DNA of 39,039 nucleotides from a virus, in IMG/VR virus record IMGVR_UViG_3300032287_001305, positions 1 to 39,039 of that record; one strand, 5' to 3'. The position numbers were made by a program, and so were the translations under genes. Positions within the stretch are counted from its first letter, which is position 1. Every line of letters starts with the position of its first letter. Of the stretch, positions 5,464 to 22,039 are shown in pieces. A model generated the notes under the pieces. That model was not told the origin of the DNA, ran no database searches, and worked only from the letters and a program-made list of their open reading frames with translations.

Positions 5464-7476
5464 ATGGAAGAAAACACACAACAACATAACAAACTTGCTA
5501 GTTGGGTTATTGAGAAAGCCGATAAGTGGCGTGATCATTACATTAGCAACTATGCACCTAAGCATGAGGAATACTATCGTCTATGGCGTGGTCAATGGGA
5601 CTCGCAGGATAAGACACGTGACAGTGAGCGTAGTAAGCTCATTGCTCCTGCCTTGCAGCAAGCTGTTGAGAGCAGCGTTGCAGAAGTAGAAGAAGCTACG
5701 TTTGGTCGTGGCAAGTGGTTTGATATTAAGGATGACCACAGAGACAAGGACAACAGTGATGTTGCCTACATGCGTCAATGCTTAGAAGAAGAGTTTAAGT
5801 TTAACAAGGGACGTAGACAAATTGCTGAAGCCTTGTTAAACGCTGCCGTGTATGGTACAGGTTGTATGGAGCTGGTGTTGGATGAAGTGACAGAGCTTGT
5901 CCCTGCTACACAACCAGTGCTGGATGGCGCTATGCAGGCTGTTGGTGTTATGCAGAAGCAACGCACAGTGGTTAAGTGGAGGCCAGTGCTGCCACAGAAC
6001 TTCCTCATTGACCCCGCATCCTCCACCATTGAAGAGGCATTAGGTGTAGCTGTTGATGAGTTTGTTCCTAAGCATCAAGTGGAACAGAACATTGAGAAGG
6101 GCATCTATCTTGACGTTGACATTGAACAAGCAGCTCCTGATCAAGACTTAGAGCCTGACCAAGACCTCACCCTGTACACAGAAGACAAGGTGAGACTCAC
6201 CAAGTATTATGGCTTGGTTCCCACTGATTTGTTTAAAGAAGCTATGTCTGGTGAAGACTATGAAGAACCAGCCGATGACAAAGCAGAAGATGAGAAAGAG
6301 CCTGAGTATACAGAAGCCATTGTCATTGTGGCTAACGGTGGTGTGTTGTTAAAGGTTGAAGCCAACCCTTATATGATGCAAGACCGTCCTCTGGTTGCCT
6401 TCCCTTGGGATGTAGTTCCCGGACGCTTCTGGGGCCGTGGCATCTGTGAGAAGGGCTATAACAGCCAGAAGGCCCTTGATGCAGAGCTTCGTGCTCGTAT
6501 TGATGCCTTGGCTATGACTGTCCATCCAATGATGGCTATGGACGCTACACGTATGCCTAGAGGCGCTAAGCTGGAGGTGAGACCCGGTAAGAACATTCTA
6601 ACCAATGGCAACCCTAATGAAGTGTTGATGCCCTTTAAGTTTGGTAGCATTGATCAGATTACATTTGTTCAGGCTGAGCAGCTCCAGAAGATGGTACAGA
6701 TGGCTACAGGTGCTGTAGATGCTGGTGGTATGTCTGGTGTTATCAATGGTGAAGCTGCTGCTGGCGCTGTTAGCATGTCTCTTGGAGCCATCATCAAGCG
6801 TCACAAGCGCACATTGATTAATTTCCAAGACTGTTTCCTCATTCCTCTCATTGAGAAGAGTGCCTACCGCTACATGCAATATGATCCAGACAATTTCCCT
6901 GCTCAAGACTTCAAGTTTGTAGCAAGCAGCTCTCTTGGTGTCATTGCACGTGAGTATGAAGTGACACAATTGGTGCAGCTGTTGCAGACATTGGGTCAAG
7001 ATAGCCCCATGTATCCCATGTTGGTGGAAGCAGTTGTGGATAATATGTCTTTGTCTAATAGAGAAGACCTCATTGCTCAGCTTAAACAGCTCAGCCAGCC
7101 CAATCCACAAGCTCAACAAGCTCAGCAACAGCAGATGGAACAGCAAATGGCTACAGTGCAGGCTCAAGTGCAGCTGTTACAGGCTCAGGCAGCTGAGAGC
7201 CAAGGCCGTGCCATCAAATATCAGACAGAAGCACAGGCTATTCCTACACAACTTGAGACAGATCGTATCAAAGCTGTGTCAGGCAGCTTGCCAAAGGACG
7301 ATATGGGTGACAAAGAGTTTGAAAAGAGAGCCAGACTTGCTGAACTGGTGCTGAAAGAACGTGAAATTACTAGCAAAGAAGCCATTGTAGAGAAGCAAAT
7401 GCGTGAAAGCACTAAGAATTCTACAAGTGATGCAGCTTTGATGGAAGCTTTGAACAAAGGAAAAGCTAATGCGTGA
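5464..7476 (+). CDS. Portal protein
   Basis: The 670-aa protein follows the large terminase and begins with a portal-type N-terminal region (EKADKWRDHYISNYAPKHEE, then LWRGQWDSQD). A central VPGRFWGRGICEKGYNSQKA segment fits the wing/stem region of podophage portals, and a long Gln/Ala-rich helical C-terminus (residues about 540-600, repeated QAQQQ) could form a barrel. It would form the dodecameric ring through which DNA is pumped and ejected. Its last eight bases overlap the next gene in another frame. Confidence 0.9.
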   Translation: MEENTQQHNKLASWVIEKADKWRDHYISNYAPKHEEYYRLWRGQWDSQDKTRDSERSKLIAPALQQAVESSVAEVEEATFGRGKWFDIKDDHRDKDNSDVAYMRQCLEEEFKFNKGRRQIAEALLNAAVYGTGCMELVLDEVTELVPATQPVLDGAMQAVGVMQKQRTVVKWRPVLPQNFLIDPASSTIEEALGVAVDEFVPKHQVEQNIEKGIYLDVDIEQAAPDQDLEPDQDLTLYTEDKVRLTKYYGLVPTDLFKEAMSGEDYEEPADDKAEDEKEPEYTEAIVIVANGGVLLKVEANPYMMQDRPLVAFPWDVVPGRFWGRGICEKGYNSQKALDAELRARIDALAMTVHPMMAMDATRMPRGAKLEVRPGKNILTNGNPNEVLMPFKFGSIDQITFVQAEQLQKMVQMATGAVDAGGMSGVINGEAAAGAVSMSLGAIIKRHKRTLINFQDCFLIPLIEKSAYRYMQYDPDNFPAQDFKFVASSSLGVIAREYEVTQLVQLLQTLGQDSPMYPMLVEAVVDNMSLSNREDLIAQLKQLSQPNPQAQQAQQQQMEQQMATVQAQVQLLQAQAAESQGRAIKYQTEAQAIPTQLETDRIKAVSGSLPKDDMGDKEFEKRARLAELVLKEREITSKEAIVEKQMRESTKNSTSDAALMEALNKGKANA

Positions 7477-9826
7477 TGAAGTAGCCCGTCTTGCTGCTGC
7501 TAAAGCTTTAGAACTAGCTCAAGCTGTCACCACTCTTGTTGGCCCTAGTGGAGAAAAGGGAGACAAGGGAGAGAAAGGCGACAAGGGAGACAAAGGCGAA
7601 GCTGGTGTAGATGGTCGTAATGGCAAAGATGGCATAGACGGCAAGGATGGAAACAATGGTGTAGATGGTGTTTCCATTACAAGTGTAAAGATTGACCTCG
7701 ATGACCATTTAGTTGTACAGCTTTCCACTGGAGAAGAGATTGATGCAGGAAGCTTGGCTGCTGCCAAGGCTTCTTCAGTGTATGCAATGCTGAAACAGAC
7801 AGCTGATACAGCTCCTCTGGTTTCTTCTATTGAAGACTTGCAAGCTCAGATCAATACTTTGACAGGTATTGATGGAACTCTTGGAAGCATGGCTCAACAA
7901 GAGGCAAACGCTGTATCCATCACTGGTGGAACCATTACAGGTATTACCGACTTAGCAGTGGCTGATGGTGGTACAGGAGCTTCTACGGCCTCCGGTGCTC
8001 GTACTAACTTAGGGCTGGTAATTGGTGCTGATGTGTTGGCTCCTAACGGAAGTGCTGCTTCTCTAACAAACTTTCCTACGTTAAATCAAAACACTACAGG
8101 GACAGCTAGTAACGTAACTGGCACAGTAGCTATCGTTAACGGTGGCACTGGTGCTACGACAGCAGGAGCAGCTTTGACTGCTTTAGGTGCTTACGCAGCG
8201 TCTAACCCGTCAGGATACACATCGAATACTGGTACTGTTACTTCCGTAGCGTTAACTACACCTACTGGATTGACGGTTACAGGTTCTCCTGTGACTACAT
8301 CAGGCACTCTAGCGTTGTCAATGACTTCAGGGTATGCTATCCCTACAACAGCTAGTCAGACTAATTGGGATACAGCTTACGGATGGGGTAATCATGCTTC
8401 TGCTGGTTATTTAAGTACATCCACAGCCGCATCTACATATGCTCCTTTGACGGGTACAGGTACATCAGGTACTTGGGGCATATCAATTACAGGTAATGCA
8501 GCTACGGCAACTAACGTGGCTTACAGTGGTTTAACAGGCACTATACCAACTTGGAACCAGAACACTACTGGCACAGCTTCTAATGTTACTGGAACTGTGG
8601 CTATCGCTAATGGCGGTACTGGGCAAACAACCGCTGTTGCTGCTTTTGATGCCCTATCACCTGCAACAACAAAAGGTGATTTGATTGTAAGCAACGGTAC
8701 AGATAATGTACGTCTTCCTGTAGGCACTAATGATTACGTTTTAACTGCTGACAGCACTCAAGCCAGTGGCGTTAAATGGGCCGCTGCAACGGGTGGTGGT
8801 AGTCCATTGACAGTTAAAGACGAAGGTACAACACTATCGTCTGCTGTTACTAGCATTGACTTTACAGGCTCTGGTGTTACAGCAACAGCCGTAGGAAATG
8901 CTATTTCTGTTGCTATTGCTGGCGGTGGCGGCGGCAGTAGTGTTGATATTCAAGAATTTAAAACGGCTGGCACATCTACATGGACAAAACCTTCGGGCGC
9001 TAAATTAGTCTATGTTGTTTGCATTGGCGGTGGTGGCGGTGGAGGTTCAGGTTATCGTCAATCCGTTTCAGATACAAACCCTGCCGTTGGTGGTTGCGGG
9101 GCGGGTGGTGGCGGTCGCATTGAAATGTGGCTTCCGGGAGTTTCTTTAGGAGGCACTGAAACTATTACTATTGGTTCTGGTGGAACTGGTAATGCAGCCC
9201 GCACTTCAGATGGAGTAACTGGCTCTACAGGTGGAGCAGGAACAAGAAGTAGTTTTGGTAGTTGGGTAAACGCTTATGGCGGTAACGGAGGGTCTAGCGG
9301 AACAACTAACTCACAAGGTGGTGGAGTTGCAGGCGGTGCTGGAGCGGCAAATAATGCGGTAATGGCACAAGGTTCAACTACTCCTTCATGGTTTACTAGT
9401 ATCGGCGGCAATAATAGTGGTGGCGCGGCAGGGGGTGCTGGTAACGCTGGAGCCATTGGCCCCGGTGGTGGCGGTGGAGGTGGTGGTTTAGTTTTATCGC
9501 CCGTTTCTTCTTTAAATGGAGGCAGTGGAGGTCGAGGGGCTGCTTTAAGTAATACAACTCTTGCTACAGGAGGTGGCGGGGGAACTGCTGGAACATCAGG
9601 AGGTGGAACAGGTGGTACAGGCGCAAACCAAACAGCAGCCTTTTTAGGGGGTGCTGGCGGTGGAGGTGGTGGTAGCAACCATAACAACGCAACAGGCGGC
9701 ACAGGCGGCGCTGGAGGTTATCCCGGAGGCGGTGGCGGTGGTGGCGGCGCATCTAAACCGGGTTTTAATTCAGGTGCTGGCGGCAATGGTGGTAATGGTT
9801 ATGTTGCTGTTATTACGTTCTTCTAA
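7469..9826 (+). CDS. Tail fibre: collagen-like, repeat and glycine-rich adhesin
   Basis: The 785-aa protein has three zones. Residues about 24-68 are Gly-X-Y triplets (EKGDKGEKGDKGDKGEAG), which form collagen-like trimers in phage fibres. Residues about 150-430 carry beta-type repeats, including two copies of NQNTTGTASNVTGTVAI followed by an NGGTG motif. Residues about 495-785 are extremely glycine-rich (runs such as GGGGGGG), like the glycine-rich tip domains of phage adhesins. It probably contacts the host receptor. It lies between portal and scaffold genes, an unusual place for a fibre, and overlaps the portal by eight bases. Confidence 0.85.
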   Translation: MRDEVARLAAAKALELAQAVTTLVGPSGEKGDKGEKGDKGDKGEAGVDGRNGKDGIDGKDGNNGVDGVSITSVKIDLDDHLVVQLSTGEEIDAGSLAAAKASSVYAMLKQTADTAPLVSSIEDLQAQINTLTGIDGTLGSMAQQEANAVSITGGTITGITDLAVADGGTGASTASGARTNLGLVIGADVLAPNGSAASLTNFPTLNQNTTGTASNVTGTVAIVNGGTGATTAGAALTALGAYAASNPSGYTSNTGTVTSVALTTPTGLTVTGSPVTTSGTLALSMTSGYAIPTTASQTNWDTAYGWGNHASAGYLSTSTAASTYAPLTGTGTSGTWGISITGNAATATNVAYSGLTGTIPTWNQNTTGTASNVTGTVAIANGGTGQTTAVAAFDALSPATTKGDLIVSNGTDNVRLPVGTNDYVLTADSTQASGVKWAAATGGGSPLTVKDEGTTLSSAVTSIDFTGSGVTATAVGNAISVAIAGGGGGSSVDIQEFKTAGTSTWTKPSGAKLVYVVCIGGGGGGGSGYRQSVSDTNPAVGGCGAGGGGRIEMWLPGVSLGGTETITIGSGGTGNAARTSDGVTGSTGGAGTRSSFGSWVNAYGGNGGSSGTTNSQGGGVAGGAGAANNAVMAQGSTTPSWFTSIGGNNSGGAAGGAGNAGAIGPGGGGGGGGLVLSPVSSLNGGSGGRGAALSNTTLATGGGGGTAGTSGGGTGGTGANQTAAFLGGAGGGGGGSNHNNATGGTGGAGGYPGGGGGGGGASKPGFNSGAGGNGGNGYVAVITFF

Positions 9827-9835
9827 GGAGACACT

Positions 9836-10048
9836 ATGCCAAAACAATTCCTACTAAACGCAGATGGTTCTATTCCAGCCAACGTAAATGTTGAAGCATT
9901 ACAAGCCGCTGGTATTCCTTTAGTGTTGCCTACGCCTATGCCAAGAGAAAGCGGTATGGTTGCTGTTGAGCAAGAGCCGCAAATTATTGATGGTGTATGG
10001 AAGCAAGTATGGACACTTGAGCCAGCACCTGAGCTTGAAGAGAATTAA
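9836..10048 (+). CDS. Small fibre-associated protein, possible assembly chaperone
   Basis: The 70-aa acidic protein (MPKQFLLNADGSIPANVNVE to VWTLEPAPELEEN) begins nine bases after the glycine-rich fibre and has GGAGACACT before its ATG. Small acidic ORFs directly after fibre genes often encode tail-fibre assembly chaperones, and the IIDGVWKQVW pattern with a Pro/Glu-rich end fits that type. No direct evidence of function is visible. Confidence 0.6.
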   Translation: MPKQFLLNADGSIPANVNVEALQAAGIPLVLPTPMPRESGMVAVEQEPQIIDGVWKQVWTLEPAPELEEN

Positions 10049-12479: not shown

Positions 12480-13439
12480 ATGGCAATATGGCGTGGAACG
12501 GGTGGCTCAGGTGAGAGCACCAGTGACAGTACAATTAACATCACCACTCAACTAGCTACACAGGCTGCTAACAGTGCTGCTGCTGCTTTAGTCTCTGAAA
12601 ATAACGCAGAGACAGCAGAGACAAACGCTGAGACAGCTGCAACGGCTTCTTCTGCTTCTGCTACAGCAGCGGCAACCAGTGCCACCAATGCTGCTTCTAG
12701 TCAGACAGCTGCTGCTTCCTCTGCTACAGGAGCTGCTACTAGCGCCACTGCTGCTGCTTCTAGTGCTTCTGCTGCCAGCACCTCTGCAACTAATGCAGCA
12801 AGTTCTGCTTCAGCTGCATCTACCAGTGCAAGCACAGCTTCTACACAAGCTAGTAATGCTGCTACGTCTGCTACCAATGCAGCTGCTTCAGCAACTACAG
12901 CAGCCACACAAGCAACTAATGCAAGCAACAGTGCATCAGCTGCTGCAACGTCTGCCACTAATGCTGCTAGTTCAGCCAGTGCAGCAAGTACGTCAGCAAC
13001 GAATGCTAGTACCTCTGCTTCAGCCGCTTCTACAAGTGCCACTAATGCTTCTAATAGCGCCTCAGCTGCTGCTACTAGTGCCACCAATGCTGCTAACAGT
13101 GCTACATTAGCTGCTAGTTATACACCATCACAGACAGGTAATGCTGGTAAGTTTCTTACTACTAACGGTACAGCTACATCTTGGGGAACTGTTGATGCTC
13201 TGCCTAGCCAAACAGGAAACAGTGGTAAATATTTAACTACTAACGGTACAGCAGCTTCGTGGGCAACACTCAACGTAGACCCTAACGTAACTACTAAAGG
13301 CTTGTATGAAATGGCTAACACTATTAGTGCCAACTATTCTATGACAGCTGGTAACAATGCTATGTCTGCTGGCCCTATTACAGTGAATAGCGGTATAACA
13401 GTGACAGTGCCTAGTGGCAGTGTCTGGACTATTGTTTAA
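12480..13439 (+). CDS. Ala/Ser/Thr repeat tail-fibre protein
   Basis: The 319-aa protein begins MAIWRGTGGSGESTSD, an N-terminus typical of podophage fibres that dock to the tail. Residues about 40-215 are a low-complexity array of heptads such as SATNAAS and SASAAST, likely a long trimeric coiled stalk. Two copies of an SQTGNxGKxLTTNGTAxSW module follow (about 222-265), then a beta-type end. GGAG precedes the ATG. It has no globular receptor-binding domain, so later fibre genes may supply the tip. Confidence 0.8.
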   Translation: MAIWRGTGGSGESTSDSTINITTQLATQAANSAAAALVSENNAETAETNAETAATASSASATAAATSATNAASSQTAAASSATGAATSATAAASSASAASTSATNAASSASAASTSASTASTQASNAATSATNAAASATTAATQATNASNSASAAATSATNAASSASAASTSATNASTSASAASTSATNASNSASAAATSATNAANSATLAASYTPSQTGNAGKFLTTNGTATSWGTVDALPSQTGNSGKYLTTNGTAASWATLNVDPNVTTKGLYEMANTISANYSMTAGNNAMSAGPITVNSGITVTVPSGSVWTIV

Positions 13440-13447
13440 GGAATATT

Positions 13448-13963
13448 ATGCCAATTACAATTAATGGCTCTGGTACAGTTACAGGCATCACTGCTGGTGG
13501 TTTGCCTGATGGTTCAATTACACCTGCTGATATTGCTGCAACAGGTACACCAAGCTCAACTACTTACCTTCGTGGTGATGGTGTTTGGTCTACTGTTTCT
13601 GGCGGTGTAACTTCTGCTACAGCAGGTAACGGTATTGCTGTCTCTGCCTCTACAGGCGCTGTGACGTTTAGCGCTGCTGCACCTTCGTTTAATACTGTTG
13701 GGAGTTACGCGCTTGTAAAAATGAATCAGGGGTCGTATCCATACTCAAATATGTCATGGACATCTGGAAGCGACTATGCGGCTGGTAATGGTAAAAACCA
13801 ACTTAACAGTGGTTCTTTATTTCCTGTTGGTCAGTATACGTCACAGTCAGCTTCTAACAATCTGTCTGGCACTTGGCGCTGGCTAGGCAATAGTGCAACT
13901 CTTGGTAACGTTGGGTGTTGCCAATACTGGACTCCGTTTGCTATTGCCGTTCGTGTCGCTTAA
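13448..13963 (+). CDS. Tail fibre tip protein, 171 aa
   Basis: The N-terminus MPITINGSGTVTGITAGGLP is the common start of phage fibre/tip proteins, followed by ATGTPSSTTYLRGDGVWSTV, a repeat-type linker seen in many fibres. The C-terminal half (from about residue 75) is unlike the other fibre genes here and ends NVGCCQYWTPFAIAVRVA, possibly a receptor-binding domain. It starts eight bases after the stalk gene, with AAGGAATATT before the ATG. Confidence 0.7.
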   Translation: MPITINGSGTVTGITAGGLPDGSITPADIAATGTPSSTTYLRGDGVWSTVSGGVTSATAGNGIAVSASTGAVTFSAAAPSFNTVGSYALVKMNQGSYPYSNMSWTSGSDYAAGNGKNQLNSGSLFPVGQYTSQSASNNLSGTWRWLGNSATLGNVGCCQYWTPFAIAVRVA

Positions 13964-13975
13964 AAGGAGAAAAAC

Positions 13976-14227
13976 ATGTTAACCGTTGACTATGCAAAAG
14001 ACCCGTTTTGGAACAGCGATGACGGGCAACAGATTTGCTTGACCGTAAAGTTTAATGAGTTTCAAGGAGAAATTCCGTTCACAGCCACATCGTTCGACTC
14101 AATGTCCTATGGCGTTGACCTTTACAACCGTGCCAAAGCTGGTGAGTTCGGTGATATTGCGCCTTATGTTGCGCCTTTTACACCCGCCGAAGACCAGCCA
14201 ACAACCCAAGGCGCTCAAACTTTATGA
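13976..14227 (+). CDS. Small fibre-associated protein, possible chaperone
   Basis: The 83-aa protein (MLTVDYAKDPFWNSDDGQQI to PAEDQPTTQGAQTL) follows the tip gene by 12 bases, with AAGGAG upstream. YNRAKAGEFGDIAPYVAP resembles the C-terminal part of small tail-fibre assembly proteins. Its acidic nature and place after a fibre gene support a chaperone or fibre-attachment role, which is inferred. Confidence 0.65.
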   Translation: MLTVDYAKDPFWNSDDGQQICLTVKFNEFQGEIPFTATSFDSMSYGVDLYNRAKAGEFGDIAPYVAPFTPAEDQPTTQGAQTL

Positions 14228-14367
14228 TTTACCCCGGCTCTGTCCCAGAGTTTCGTGTGCTTATAAAAGCAGACGGCGCACAAGTTTTGCAAGTGCGTTA
14301 CATCAACACGCCTATGGGGTACACGGGCAAGTGGCAAGACATTCCAGTGGTGCAAGACAATGGTTAA
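14224..14367 (+). CDS. Hypothetical 47-aa protein in the fibre module
   Basis: The ORF reads MIYPGSVPEFRVLIKADGAQ, VLQVRYINTPMGYTGKWQDI, PVVQDNG. Its ATG overlaps the previous stop (ATGA) and its end overlaps the next start, so it is embedded in a coupled series. The short beta-rich pattern with a conserved-looking GKWQDIPVV ending resembles small phage proteins encoded beside fibres. Function unknown. Confidence 0.6.
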   Translation: MIYPGSVPEFRVLIKADGAQVLQVRYINTPMGYTGKWQDIPVVQDNG

Positions 14368-14641
14368 TCCAGTAGTTCCTAGACACATGGTCACTTATGA
14401 CGGTGCAACAGTTAATGTATATCACGCAAACAAAGGTCAGGGATTGCCACGCCATGAACACGCTTATGCTCATTTAACAATGTGCCATGCTGGTTCTTGT
14501 TTGATTACTAAAGAAGGAAAGTCACTCATCATGACAAAAGACACACAACCTGTTGATTTACTAGCTGACGGTTGGCATGAGATTGAAGCATTAGAAGACG
14601 GCACAGTTTTTGTTAACGTCTTTTCAGAAGGAAAATATTAA
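14360..14641 (+). CDS. Cupin-like small protein in the fibre module
   Basis: The 93-aa protein has a cupin-type pattern: GLPRHEHAYAHLTMCHAGSC (His-x-His with a following Gly turn), then LITKEGKSLIMT and a late GWHEIEALEDGTVFVNVF strand. Cupins are small beta-barrels that often bind a metal or sugar through such histidines. It overlaps the previous gene by eight bases and abuts the next. A role in modifying or assembling fibres, or as a small virion protein, is possible; no catalysis can be assigned. Confidence 0.65.
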   Translation: MVNPVVPRHMVTYDGATVNVYHANKGQGLPRHEHAYAHLTMCHAGSCLITKEGKSLIMTKDTQPVDLLADGWHEIEALEDGTVFVNVFSEGKY

Positions 14642-15148
14642 ATGGGAATTAAACTCGCAGCGGCAAGTGGCGGAAGCGTTGAACTTGTCCCAACAAACAC
14701 AGCTAGTAACTTCATGGCTACGATGCCAGCTCGTACAGGTAACGTAGCGGTTGATGGCCCTGCGTTTGACGCAACAGCGGACGGCACTCAAGTTGTTGGC
14801 AGCGGAACATACACAAAAATTTTGTTTACGTCAGAGACATTTGACACAAACAATAATTTTGCATCAAGCCGATTTACGCCGACAGTTGCTGGCTATTATC
14901 AAATAAATACGTGTTGGTCGGCTTCTACAACTGGTGAAACAGTTGTGGCAATTTATAAAAATGGTTCGCTATTTCGGTATCTATTTGATCTTACTATGAC
15001 TAACCTTTATACACAGTCCAGTAGTTTGCTAATGTATTTAAACGGTTCTACTGACTACATTGAGGTTTATGCTTACCAATCGTCTGGTTCAAACAAAAAC
15101 CCAAATAGTGGTAGTTATTTTTCTGGCTCATTTGTGAGGGCGGCATGA
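14642..15148 (+). CDS. C1q/TNF-like fibre head protein
   Basis: The 168-aa protein shows a C1q-like beta-jelly-roll pattern. GPAFDATADGTQVV is followed by TYTKILFTSETFDTNNNF, then SRFTPTVAGYYQINTCWS (the AGYY strand is a hallmark), IYKNGSLFR, and a C-terminal YIEVYAYQSSGSN with SYFSGSFVRAA. C1q folds form trimers and bind sugars or proteins, and are used at the tips of phage fibres. It starts directly after the cupin-like gene and overlaps the next ORF (ATGATG). Confidence 0.8.
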   Translation: MGIKLAAASGGSVELVPTNTASNFMATMPARTGNVAVDGPAFDATADGTQVVGSGTYTKILFTSETFDTNNNFASSRFTPTVAGYYQINTCWSASTTGETVVAIYKNGSLFRYLFDLTMTNLYTQSSSLLMYLNGSTDYIEVYAYQSSGSNKNPNSGSYFSGSFVRAA

Positions 15149-15309
15149 TGACACTTGTTGAAAAAATTAAAACGCTGTACCCAGCCCTGCAAGATTCAGA
15201 TTTTAAATACACCATCATTGTGCAAAACGACAGCGATGGTCGTGGAGACTACATCGCCGCATGGAATCATCCAACACTTGCACGCCCTACTGAGGAGCAA
15301 TTAGCATGA
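15145..15309 (+). CDS. Small XkdW-like fibre-associated protein, 54 aa
   Basis: The ORF reads MMTLVEKIKTLYPALQDSDF, KYTIIVQNDSDGRGDYIAAW, NHPTLARPTEEQLA. The ending, with Trp then ARPTEEQL, matches small XkdW-type proteins that follow phage fibre genes. It overlaps the C1q-like gene and its stop overlaps the next start. The GAGGAG in its last codons serves as the ribosome site for the following fibre gene. Confidence 0.65.
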   Translation: MMTLVEKIKTLYPALQDSDFKYTIIVQNDSDGRGDYIAAWNHPTLARPTEEQLA

Positions 15310-16313
15310 GCGTTTCAATCAACGGCACAAGCGGCTTAGTTTTTAACGATGCCTCTACGCAGAACACTGCGGCTACTGGCTTTGGCTTCAAGAACCGCAT
15401 CATCAATGGTGCGATGATGATTGACCAGCGTAATGCGGGGGCTAGTGTTACTATAACATCAGGCGCCTACACGCTAGATAGATGGCTTTGCGGAGCTTCT
15501 CAATCATCCAAATACGCAGTCCAACAAAACGCTGGCTCAGTCACACCACCTGCTGGTTTTAAAAACTATTTAGGTGTAACTTCATCTTCTGCGTATTCAA
15601 TCACATCTACTGATTATTTTGGCATTATTCAGCCTATTGAAGGTTTAAACATAGGTGATTTGGCTTGGGGTACAGCGAGTGCTGCAACAGTAACTTTATC
15701 GTTCTGGGTTCGTAGCTCATTGACAGGCACATTTGGCGGGTCATTGCAAAACAGCGCTCAAAATAGGAGTTATCCATTTTCTTACACAATTTCTAGTGCA
15801 AATACTTGGGAACAAAAAACCATAACAATTGCTGGCGATACATCTGGCACATGGTTAACGACAAATGGTGTTGGTATCTACTTAACTATTGGGCTTGGCT
15901 ATGGCTCAACATATAGCGGTACTGCTGGTTCTTGGTCTTCAAACAACTATATATCAGCCACAGGCGCAACAAGCGTAGTCGGCACAAACGGAGCCACCTT
16001 CTACATCACAGGCGTTCAACTAGAAAAAGGCAGCACAGCCACATCGTTTGACTACCGCCCGTATGGTACTGAGTTGGCTTTGTGTCAGCGGTACTACGGA
16101 AAAGGCCGTGCTTATGGTATCCCTCGATCAAACGACAATGTGTTTTTGAGTTACACAACTTTTAAAGTAGCTATGAGAGCCGCGCCTACCATTACAACGT
16201 CAGACAGCTCTCCAGTTCAATTCACAGAAGTTGATGCGTGGGCTGGATATCAGTCGCCGGGGGTTGCTGGAGGCGCTCAAATATTTTACTGGACTGCAAC
16301 AGCGGAGCTATAA
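15306..16313 (+). CDS. Tail fibre/adhesin, 335 aa
   Basis: After an N-terminal MSVSINGTSGLVFNDASTQN docking segment, the protein has the conserved FKNRIINGAMMIDQRNAGAS and YTLDRWLCG patterns of a widespread phage fibre family. A beta-sandwich region with carbohydrate-binding-like strands (residues about 115-240) follows, then YITGVQLEKGSTATSFDYRP, a shared hinge before a variable end. It probably binds a surface sugar. GAGGAG lies eight bases before the ATG. Confidence 0.8.
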   Translation: MSVSINGTSGLVFNDASTQNTAATGFGFKNRIINGAMMIDQRNAGASVTITSGAYTLDRWLCGASQSSKYAVQQNAGSVTPPAGFKNYLGVTSSSAYSITSTDYFGIIQPIEGLNIGDLAWGTASAATVTLSFWVRSSLTGTFGGSLQNSAQNRSYPFSYTISSANTWEQKTITIAGDTSGTWLTTNGVGIYLTIGLGYGSTYSGTAGSWSSNNYISATGATSVVGTNGATFYITGVQLEKGSTATSFDYRPYGTELALCQRYYGKGRAYGIPRSNDNVFLSYTTFKVAMRAAPTITTSDSSPVQFTEVDAWAGYQSPGVAGGAQIFYWTATAEL

Positions 16314-16463
16314 ATGGAAAATTACAAACTCACAAATTCTGAGAATGTGAAGCGCTTGTCTGATAACGCCTTCATCCCATTCGACCCCGCCAACACAGAC
16401 TACCAAGCCTATTTGAAATGGCTGTCCGAGGGCAACACGCCTGAACCTGCTGAGGAGCAATGA
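16314..16463 (+). CDS. Small tail-fibre assembly-like protein, 49 aa
   Basis: The ORF reads [49 protein letters not shown]. The pattern FIPxDPANxDYQxYLxWLxxGNTPxP is characteristic of small proteins encoded just after phage fibre genes, often annotated as fibre assembly proteins. It follows the fibre stop directly. Its GAGGAG serves the next start, as in the 15145 gene. Confidence 0.75.
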
Positions 16464-16639
16464 TGCCAACAGTTGATGCAACAGATGCACGTTTGTCTTC
16501 TCATGAAGAAGTGTGTGCCTTAAGGTATGAAATTATTAATGCTCGTCTTAAACGTCTAGAAAGTATATTGGTAACAGCATGTGGCATATTATTAACCAGT
16601 ATGGGAGGTGTTGTTTTCACTTTGATAACACACAAGTGA
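16463..16639 (+). CDS. XhlA-like membrane protein, lysis accessory
   Basis: The 58-aa protein has an N-terminal amphipathic, charged helix (SSHEEVCALRYEIINARLKR) and one C-terminal transmembrane segment (ILVTACGILLTSMGGVVFTL). This is the layout of XhlA-type proteins that assist holins in cell lysis. Of two adjacent ATGs, the second (16463) has better spacing from GAGGAG. It opens a run of membrane and lysis genes. Confidence 0.65.
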   Translation: MPTVDATDARLSSHEEVCALRYEIINARLKRLESILVTACGILLTSMGGVVFTLITHK

Positions 16640-16640
16640 T

Positions 16641-17351
16641 ATGCCATTAGCCATACTAGCTGCTGCAAATGCTGCTGTTAAGGCTATACAACAGGGATGT
16701 GAGCTTTATCAGGAATACAAAGGAACCGTCCTAGAAGCTAAGAAAACCTTGGACACTGCCGTAGGTATTGCCAAGGAAGTTTCAGGGGCTTCTAGGGGCT
16801 TCTGGGGCTTTCTAAAGGGCAAGTTCTTTGGGGAGGAAAAGTCTGTTATACAGGTTGAAGCTAAACCTCCTGAAAAGAAGGCTAAGAAAGTTCCAATAGA
16901 CAGGGATGAATTGTCCATAACATTGGACATCATTGCTCAGCTTAAGGTGTTCTTCTCATGTATGACACAGCTTAAACAGAAGCTGGCAGATGCAGAGCTA
17001 CATAGCCTAGATGCTAAGAGTGATGCTGACCTTCTAAGCAGCTCAGTGGATATTGAATATGCTATGACAGAAGTGGCTAAGCTTCAGAAGCAGATAAGAG
17101 AAACAATGGTGTATCAAATAGGCGGAGACTTAGGAGACCTATACACCAAGGTGGTTAAGAGAGTAGGGATAATACAAGAACAACAAGAAGCAGCTAGGCT
17201 GGTGGCTCTGAGAAAGAAGAAAGAAGAAGAGGCTATTAAAGCCCAACAAGCAGCCAAGCGTCATAAGCGTTTAGCTATAGCAGCAATAGTAATACTTATA
17301 ACGGCGGAAACATGGGGACTAATGGCAGCGATAGTGATAGCAAATACATAA
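16641..17351 (+). CDS. Coiled-coil protein with C-terminal membrane anchor
   Basis: The 236-aa protein has an Ala-rich amphipathic N-terminus, a Lys-rich hinge (EAKPPEKKAKKVPIDRDELS, about 73-93), long helices, and a C-terminal hydrophobic span (LAIAAIVILITAETWGLMAA). No family is recognised. Its place between an XhlA-like protein and holins suggests a membrane or lysis role, though an internal virion protein is possible. The next small ORF starts inside its last 40 bases in another frame. Confidence 0.65.
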   Translation: MPLAILAAANAAVKAIQQGCELYQEYKGTVLEAKKTLDTAVGIAKEVSGASRGFWGFLKGKFFGEEKSVIQVEAKPPEKKAKKVPIDRDELSITLDIIAQLKVFFSCMTQLKQKLADAELHSLDAKSDADLLSSSVDIEYAMTEVAKLQKQIRETMVYQIGGDLGDLYTKVVKRVGIIQEQQEAARLVALRKKKEEEAIKAQQAAKRHKRLAIAAIVILITAETWGLMAAIVIANT

Positions 17352-21373: not shown

Positions 21374-22039
21374 ATGAGTAACTATACAAAGCTTACGTCT
21401 TATGATACGAAGGACAGCTTAACAACAGGCGACCCTTTAAAGCGTGTTAAAGGTACAGAGCTAGATGATGAGTTTGATGCCATTGCTACAGCCATTGCTA
21501 CTAAGGCTGACAGTGTATCTCCTAGCTTCTCAGGAACACCTACAGCTCCTACAGCTTCGTTTGGTACTAACACCACACAAGTAGCAACAACGGGTTTTGT
21601 TCAAGCTGCTCTAGCTGCTATGTATCCGGTTGGTAGTGTTTATACAAACATCTCTGATGCTACAAACCCTGCAACATTGCTTGGCTTTGGTACATGGGTA
21701 GCTATTACAGGCCGTGTTGTTGTTGGTCTTGATGCTGCTGATGCTGCTTTTGATACAGCAGGTGAGACAGGTGGTAGCAAGGATGCTGTTGTTGTAAGTC
21801 ACACTCACACAGCAACATCAACAGATTCAGGCCACACTCACGATGCAAACACCTATAACTCAGGCACAGATAGTGGCCCTGATGAAACATTGCATCGTGC
21901 TAGAGGGTCATATGATCCAATTGGAACTACAACTGGCTATGCAAATATTACAACTACAGTTGCTTCTGCTGGTGTCTCAGCTACCAACGCCAACCTTCAA
22001 CCATACGTAGTTGCATACGTGTGGAAGAGAACAGCTTAA
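21374..22039 (+). CDS. Collar-type tail fibre protein
   Basis: The 221-aa protein has KRVKGTELDDEFDAIATAIA near the start, a docking pattern found in podophage tail proteins, then YPVGSVYTNISDATNPATLL with GFGTWVAITGRVVVGLD. This is the phage tail-collar-like motif. HTHTATSTDSGHTH histidines could bind metal, as in fibre tips built on HxH motifs. It follows the nozzle gene by two bases. It likely forms a short fibre or central tip. Confidence 0.8.
   Translation: MSNYTKLTSYDTKDSLTTGDPLKRVKGTELDDEFDAIATAIATKADSVSPSFSGTPTAPTASFGTNTTQVATTGFVQAALAAMYPVGSVYTNISDATNPATLLGFGTWVAITGRVVVGLDAADAAFDTAGETGGSKDAVVVSHTHTATSTDSGHTHDANTYNSGTDSGPDETLHRARGSYDPIGTTTGYANITTTVASAGVSATNANLQPYVVAYVWKRTA

Follow-up and report, generated by a model that had tools for sequence, protein, structure and literature searches.

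Why do fibre genes of different design alternate with very short open reading frames (ORFs) along a phage genome, and what could the short ORFs do? The question is raised by a region of virus record IMGVR_UViG_3300032287_001305, analysed over 39,039 bases (the window) and read here as podovirus-like in gene content. The region is flanked by the major head protein gene (phrog_267, E 1.9e-46) and by lysis genes, namely a holin (phrog_3427, 1.6e-15) and an endolysin (phrog_894, 1.7e-46). These PHROG matches agree with an earlier note, written from the letters alone, that placed an array of fibre and chaperone-like cassettes between capsid and lysis genes, and the nine ORFs of that array are all present on the + strand between 12480 and 16463. 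The region is probably organised like an operon, as a row of fibre cassettes for receptor binding, in which the small ORFs would be intermolecular chaperones or transient caps, each of a single domain and specific to one head type; this explanation is favoured as a whole, with ample room for doubt. The features that carry it, all within the window, are the following.

14642..15148, + strand: C1q-type fibre head, 168 amino acids (aa); C1q (PF00386)
15145..15309, + strand: 54-aa ORF of the XkdW family; pairs with C1q-type heads
15290..15301, + strand: CTGAGGAGCAAT, copy 1; putative in-frame Shine-Dalgarno serving the gene at 15306
15306..16313, + strand: 335-aa fibre; tail fibre PHROG, E 5.1e-58
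15306..15383, + strand: first ~26 aa of the 335-aa fibre, its N-terminal anchor; low conservation (column identity 0.16-0.31)
15384..16097, + strand: aa 27-264 of the 335-aa fibre, its conserved core; predicted jelly roll, CBM4-like
16098..16310, + strand: hypervariable C-terminal tip of the 335-aa fibre, aa 265-335; last residues near-universal Glu-Leu
16302..16307, + strand: GCGGAG, putative in-frame Shine-Dalgarno; GGAG 6 nucleotides (nt) ahead of the ATG at 16314
16314..16463, + strand: 49-aa ORF (s49 family) paired with 335-type heads; C-half conserved, N-half variable
16450..16461, + strand: CTGAGGAGCAAT, copy 2; putative in-frame Shine-Dalgarno serving the small ORF at 16463

Family labels differ in firmness. 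The 54-aa ORF, which the earlier note had left unnamed, scores above the Pfam gathering score for XkdW (PF09636; 33.7 bits against 24.6), the C1q-like label of the 168-aa head falls slightly short of its cut-off (21.0 bits against 23.7; E 4e-4), and the cupin-like label of a further ORF rests on a weak match. The 49-aa ORF matches two PHROGs of unknown function, phrog_20370/34019.

Head-specific pairing of fibres and small ORFs

Relatives were collected by a capsid search that gave 34 loci, later extended to 413 sequences including the window; loci with less than 200 nt downstream were removed, and L184, which is part of the window, was left out throughout. Pairing, pooled border and HNH counts refer to the + strand of each sequence. 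Pairing was counted over distinct 3' ends, identical ends being collapsed and close relatives kept, and these counts are not phylogenetically independent.

Among the 413 sequences, 335-type heads were followed by an s49 ORF in 243 of 284 cases and never by XkdW. For C1q-type heads the next ORF was XkdW in 74 of 94 cases and in no case s49. As described for Tfa, each small ORF lies directly downstream of one fibre type and is specific to it. A third class of fibres, defined from gp54 of the Methylophilales podovirus isolate MEP401 (Pfam Peptidase_S74, 'Chaperone of endosialidase', E 1.3e-7), had none of the three partner families directly after it in 61 of 61 cases. S74 fibres bear their own intramolecular chaperone. 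Partner-free here means without any of the three families only: the gene that follows 37 listed S74 fibres is a large ORF in 21 (12 of them labelled heads) and a small ORF of other families in 13, and none could be judged in 3. In three loci (L097 8135, L109 3739, L111 9215) an S74 fibre precedes an ORF of 46-49 aa from another shared family (MNEVKLSTNLVNAILQYLG.. type). In four others (L138, L216, L234, L245) divergent small ORFs beginning MNITSAQY or similar, missed by the profile, follow 335-type heads; they look like distant members of the 49-aa family.

The arrays between the capsid gene and a 236-aa gene vary among relatives in the number, kind and order of cassettes. With C for a C1q head, x for XkdW, F for a 335-type head, n for the 49-aa family, S for an S74 fibre and u for cupin, all by profile, the window reads uCxFn, L005 CxFnFn, L092 FnFnFnFn, L099 SCxFnFn and L146 FnSFnS; Cx and Fn units also occur in MEP401 and in one metagenomic myovirus record. 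Near-identical short N-terminal anchors are found on unlike heads in 53 cross-type pairs (at least 68% identity over 25 aa; L083 and L099 are examples). The varying cassettes and shared anchors bear out the module exchange that the earlier note had suspected among relatives. A cassette would consist of an interchangeable short N-terminal anchor, a head and, if the head lacks a built-in chaperone, a cognate small ORF; several heads may be displayed per particle.

Probable ribosome sites within the coding ends

The end of the fibre gene appears to be adapted to the gene that follows. The fibre C-terminus is Glu-Leu in 234 of 243 head-partner pairs. Where the partner starts 0-3 nt past the fibre stop, an in-frame GGAG stands 6-9 nt ahead of its ATG in 159 of 176 cases. 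An Ala that precedes the Glu is then written GCG in 125 of 129 (background 13.5%, p 1e-100), and a Ser in that place TCG in 39 of 40 (background 7%, p 9e-44). GAG is used in 3 of 14 pairs if the partner starts more than 3 nt away and in 21 of 44 if the genes overlap. The Glu codon and S74 tests were rerun on pooled sets, whose samples overlap. In the window, a GAGG also lies in the coding end of the C1q-type head gene, ahead of the next ATG. The partner would be translated from a Shine-Dalgarno in the last fibre codons (Ala/Ser-Glu-Leu-stop, written GCG or TCG and then GAG), which would tie its synthesis to that of the fibre. Short spacing and overlaps are described as favouring coupled translation and as enriched among subunits of one complex (PMC10666635).

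The same type of signal, for the next cassette, would be provided by CTGAGGAGCAAT at the small-ORF ends. The window holds two exact copies and no others: the 54-aa ORF and the 49-aa ORF each have one at the 3' end. That is well above chance, about 0.005 exact copies of the 12-mer being expected by base counting (our own arithmetic); the expectation is 4.8 in a search that allows up to 2 mismatches. Each copy places GAGGAG 6-8 nt ahead of the next ATG (15306, 16463), confirming the earlier observation that two small ORFs share an end which also serves the following gene as ribosome site. The word encodes Glu-Glu-Gln at the 3' ends of two unrelated families. Ahead of a next ATG, GAG is preferred at s49 ends (84/115 against 180/627, p 5e-19) and at XkdW ends (26/45 against 49/185, p 1.4e-4). 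Because GAG is selected at these ends and the word always stands at the same position, CTGAGGAGCAAT is best read as an in-frame Shine-Dalgarno within the coding end, a reading strongly supported by codon choice.

Borders of exchange and homing endonuclease genes

The other genes of the region and its right-hand neighbours are listed here, since they delimit the variable part.

12480..13439, + strand: stalk gene, 319 aa; short N-terminal anchor MAIWRGTGGSGES and Ala/Ser-rich repeats; phrog_3279, phrog_38058 (tail fiber)
13448..13963, + strand: small fibre or tip gene, 171 aa
13976..14227, + strand: 83-aa ORF; matches phrog_1795/1141 (tail fiber), N-terminal-type domain
14224..14367, + strand: 47-aa ORF; overlaps the 83-aa ORF by 4 nt
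14360..14641, + strand: cupin-like ORF, 93 aa; weak match, E 0.066
16463..16639, + strand: small ORF, probably membrane-bound; start at 16460 or 16463
16641..17351, + strand: 236-aa gene; in relatives the variable region stops sharply, on the right, at its start codon

In a comparison with 23 relatives, most of those that span both sides have the right-hand end of similarity to the window no more than 6 nt from the start codon at 16641. The left border lies within the stalk gene, with ends at 12514, 12520, 12602 or in the repeats, which blur the borders there. Conserved blocks are the fibre core (~15383-16097), the cupin ORF, XkdW as far as 15295-15300, and the 49-aa ORF, beginning near residue 12-20 and reaching 16456-16460. 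Next to this last block, three of the relatives listed (L005 15205-15399, L007 12762-12956, L010 4045-4239) have another ORF, of 64 aa, in place of the small ORF at 16463-16639, and the 236-aa gene stays alike where this happens.

Pooling 325 non-redundant loci gives 514 similarity ends, of which 258 lie no further than 20 nt from the core/tip border of the 335-type fibre (18-fold per nt) and 56 no further than 15 nt from the s49 stop (5.2-fold); 44 of 551 similarity starts lie at the s49 3' end (3.8-fold). All these magnitudes are rough, as they pool pairwise similarity ends. The core/tip border is the dominant one; the s49 3' end is a genuine but secondary border. Cassettes would thus shuffle between phages mainly at the core/tip border, in stalks and at gene ends.

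The secondary border coincides with genes of the HNH endonuclease family. The loci contain 17 distinct HNH-family ORFs: 8 directly after s49, 1 after XkdW and 8 with no labelled gene directly upstream. The 8 that follow s49 represent 7 elements, as L251 and L232 carry related copies, each lying at the 3' end of an s49 ORF.

L007 12184-12765: HNH ORF at the s49 3' end
L298 3737-4264: HNH ORF at the s49 3' end
L332 3636-4307: HNH ORF at the s49 3' end
L399 3676-4272: HNH ORF at the s49 3' end
L110 2716-3291: HNH ORF at the s49 3' end
L166 8427-8897: HNH ORF at the s49 3' end
L232 4305-5153: HNH ORF at the s49 3' end

The ORF of L007 (phrog_655, E 1.5e-40; Pfam HNH, 1.7e-6) ends in a piece of s49. 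Such a tail closes 6 of the 7 elements, against a background of 34 in 2874 ORFs, and the seed of the HNH search had left the s49-like tail out. At the DNA level the tails of L298, L332, L399 and L110 match s49 genes of other loci over 18-33 nt at 97-100%; the HNH bodies gave no match to s49 DNA save 5 short ones, all from a single segment and at best 13 nt long (E 0.048). Judged by position and tail, HNH elements land repeatedly in the s49 3' end.

Such elements may do more than reside there. An HNH enzyme encoded in the conserved 3' part of s49 could cut the cassettes of a partner phage, with co-conversion of the neighbouring tip and chaperone as the outcome. This is a tentative addition, an extra driver of exchange compatible with the chaperone explanation, and draws on the 8 of 17 HNH ORFs behind s49, the s49-tailed elements and the tail matches to foreign s49 genes. 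On the other side, the window and the majority of arrays carry no HNH gene, L232 lacks an s49 tail, neither L166 nor L232 has a tail with a DNA-level match to s49, and the tail of L007 finds its best DNA match within the same phage group, though it is 84% identical over ~50 nt to the s49 of the window.

Chaperone or adhesin

What the partners do at the protein level is approached through their sequence families, their predicted folds and their variation. In both s49 and XkdW families synonymous codon changes outnumber non-synonymous ones, which argues that they are real genes. The s49 domain also occurs as part of larger proteins: the 123-aa protein PpuP-Kaagvere 42, encoded beside a fibre in a Pseudomonas phage, carries it at the N-terminus (phrog_34019, E 5.1e-9) and matches three tail-fiber-assembly PHROGs at the C-terminus (E 1.5e-4 to 5e-4), and gp51 of cyanophage S-2L, annotated as tail fiber assembly-like, begins with it. 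In Pam3 gp25, residues 1-55 form an N-terminal domain that binds the fibre and the C-terminal domain trimerises; the protein was undetected in virions by mass spectrometry (PMC9608196). On the strength of these fusions and of the Pam3 domain split, the small ORFs of the window may correspond to the client-binding part alone. Tail-fibre-assembly proteins have an N-terminal domain that binds the fibre and C-terminal helices that trimerise, and the small ORFs would be akin to the former without the latter. At 49 and 54 aa they lack the helical trimerisation domain of Tfa; a part of this kind is seen in longer relatives only, PpuP-Kaagvere 42 among them.

Fold prediction of the fibre with its neighbour, proposed in the earlier note, was run on the 335-aa fibre and the 49-aa ORF as one read-through chain. 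Confidence was above 90 for most of the core, ~60 for the tip and ~80 for the partner, a three-strand plus helix unit. The fibre core is CBM4-like by fold (Foldseek 1k42, E 4.6e-7, TMt 0.68), with putative sugar binding, and also resembles CBA120 tailspike 4 and many phage tail fibres. The model of the 54-aa ORF (mean pLDDT 92.5) had PBSX XkdW (2HG7), of the same Pfam family, as its top solved match (probability 0.99, TMq 0.62), with a Foldseek E of only 0.056. Searches of solved structures gave no credible match for P0007, P0008, P0009, P0002, P0006 or the s49 profile; matches of P0003 to plant receptors were dismissed as chance repeats.

Variation of the partner partly follows that of the tip. 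Column identity is 0.67-0.85 at the end of the core, ~0.12 through most of the tip and 0.19-0.35 in the small ORF. Tip and core are uncorrelated in a Mantel test over 95 pairs (r -0.01). In nearest-neighbour tests the N-half of the partner follows the tip (percentile 0.645, p 0.0002, 94 pairs; percentile 0.595, p 0.002, 116 independent pairs) and the C-half follows the core (p 0.005 and 0.0003 in the same sets). These tests lend modest support to tip and partner N-half travelling together.

A different role has to be weighed at this point, in which the small ORFs are tip adhesins that remain on the virion and contribute to receptor binding. The gp38 protein of T-even phages is a tip adhesin of this kind. 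The Tfa protein of phage Mu is reported to stay attached to the tip (PMC10579305). The variable N-half beside a conserved C-half, the strict pairing with heads and the tracking of the tip in two of three sets would all suit an adhesin. Against it, the fibre tip is more variable than the small ORF, S74 fibres do without the partners, and the s49 domain is found fused to a fibre-assembly C-terminus. An adhesin is unlikely on these grounds.

The reading as head-specific chaperones or caps draws on the pairing, the lack of cross-pairing, the partner-free S74 fibres and the fusion of s49 to assembly domains. The s49 product would act on 335-type heads and XkdW on C1q-type heads, each as a one-domain intermolecular chaperone or transient cap that may assist trimer assembly. 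The label 'chaperone-like' given in the earlier note gains indirect support from these comparisons of sequence.

A number of results weigh against this reading, for which the support is computational throughout. No recognised partner follows 41 of 284 335-type and 20 of 94 C1q-type heads, and the lack of partners after S74 fibres could reflect head-specific ancestry instead of self-sufficiency. Neither s49 nor XkdW shows a sequence match to any solved fibre chaperone in the solved-structure searches, neither the 49- nor the 54-aa ORF matches Caudo_TAP or Phage_tail_APC in Pfam, and the match of XkdW to a tail-fiber-assembly PHROG is not significant (E 0.027). With tip confidence at only ~60, no docking can be read from the fusion model. 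As to covariation, the Mantel correlation of tip and s49 N-half is r 0.045 (p 0.14), the nearest-neighbour link is absent in 35 divergent pairs (p 0.23, power ~0.62) and its reverse direction fails in the 116-pair set (p 0.12). In that same set the C-half also tracks the tip (p 0.016) and the tip also tracks the core (p 0.014), and in a pool of 129 pairs the s49 N-half tracks the core as well (p 0.0002).

The shared word as a proposed recombination site

The earlier note had proposed that junctions with the shared word serve as recombination points for receptor-binding modules, that is, that a short word at small-ORF 3' ends directs cassette exchange. In its favour, similarity of the window to L005, L007 and L043 stops within both CTGAGGAGCAAT copies, similarity ends are enriched at s49 stops, and HNH genes sit in s49 3' ends. 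The word itself is rare: it was counted 5 times in 2.96 Mb, every copy at the 3' end of an s49- or XkdW-family ORF, and elsewhere in the 49-aa family the ending is PADE (43 of 262) or a different word. Its codons are accounted for by a Shine-Dalgarno, and the dominant border lies elsewhere. A directing role for the word is improbable, and CTGAGGAGCAAT was rejected as a recombination site on word counts and similarity borders. The check that the note had proposed, breakpoints at these junctions in relatives, turned out mixed, with some at the s49 3' end and most at the core/tip border, in the stalk and at 16641. The junction is retained as a secondary border, and since HNH genes repeatedly occupy s49 3' ends, exchange may yet take place there through a cause other than the word.

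That the small ORFs are non-functional translational spacers or relics, as their length of ~50 aa might suggest, is scarcely credible given the excess of synonymous changes, the pairing in 243 of 284 and the selected ribosome sites.

Other fibre genes of the window

The 83-aa ORF is the probable partner of the tip gene before it; a search of the loci with its profile (s83) gave 2 matches, too few relatives to judge pairing. The N-terminal 30-50 aa of the tip gene, its anchor, are also found on a C1q head in relatives. The 47-aa ORF had no family match in Pfam/PHROG-type family searches, and the 93-aa cupin-like ORF has homologues within the arrays of some relatives.

Upstream of the capsid gene (7469-10048), a 785-aa collagen-like, glycine-rich fibre is followed by a 70-aa ORF (phrog_4998, E 4.5e-5), a further fibre/small-ORF pair. 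After the tail tube genes, 21374-22039 encodes a fibre-like 221-aa protein with a Gp10_C baseplate domain (PF21939, E 4.6e-25).

Relation to known systems and significance

Fibre and chaperone modules as such are already known. Like Mu Tfa and Pam3 gp25, the small ORFs lie directly after their fibre and have a variable part, there the fibre-binding N-terminus; unlike them, the partners of the window measure 49 and 54 aa, with neither a C-terminal domain nor a Caudo_TAP match. In Alteromonas phages A5/V22 a fibre-chaperone module is likewise shared by distant phages of differing morphology, its chaperones of 195-240 aa being likened to intramolecular caps (PMC10579305); one pair per phage is reported there, whereas the present arrays combine several head types with different partners. 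The same gene types populate the hypervariable host-recognition regions known as metaviromic islands of marine phages, where the commonest genes include carbohydrate-binding 14, tail fibre 12, C1q 10, XkdW 4 and tail fibre assembly 4 (PMC3909814); that study lists XkdW as of unknown function, and 'chaperone' is absent from its main text. In the loci studied here XkdW follows C1q-type heads, never 335-type or S74 fibres. Self-chaperoned S74 fibres stand in the same arrays and some share their anchors, but unlike 335 and C1q heads they have no partner ORF of the three families (0/61). A literature search, with subscription journals mostly outside its coverage, found no account of head-specific partners this small, nor of a ribosome site built into the fibre end or HNH genes inside such partners.

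A wider proposal is rather speculative: a combinatorial receptor-recognition code common to aquatic phages of several morphotypes, with swappable anchors, head-specific one-domain chaperones made off built-in ribosome sites, and a chaperone 3' end that would serve as a landing pad for homing endonucleases, driving joint exchange of hypervariable tips and their chaperones.

For two common small-ORF families beside the host-recognition genes of aquatic phages, XkdW and s49 (phrog_20370/34019), the analysis offers a function that can be tested. A simple genomic rule pairs fibres with their partners, which is relevant to making soluble fibres. The places where receptor-binding parts would be exchanged are also indicated, namely the core/tip border and the s49 3' end with its HNH insertions.

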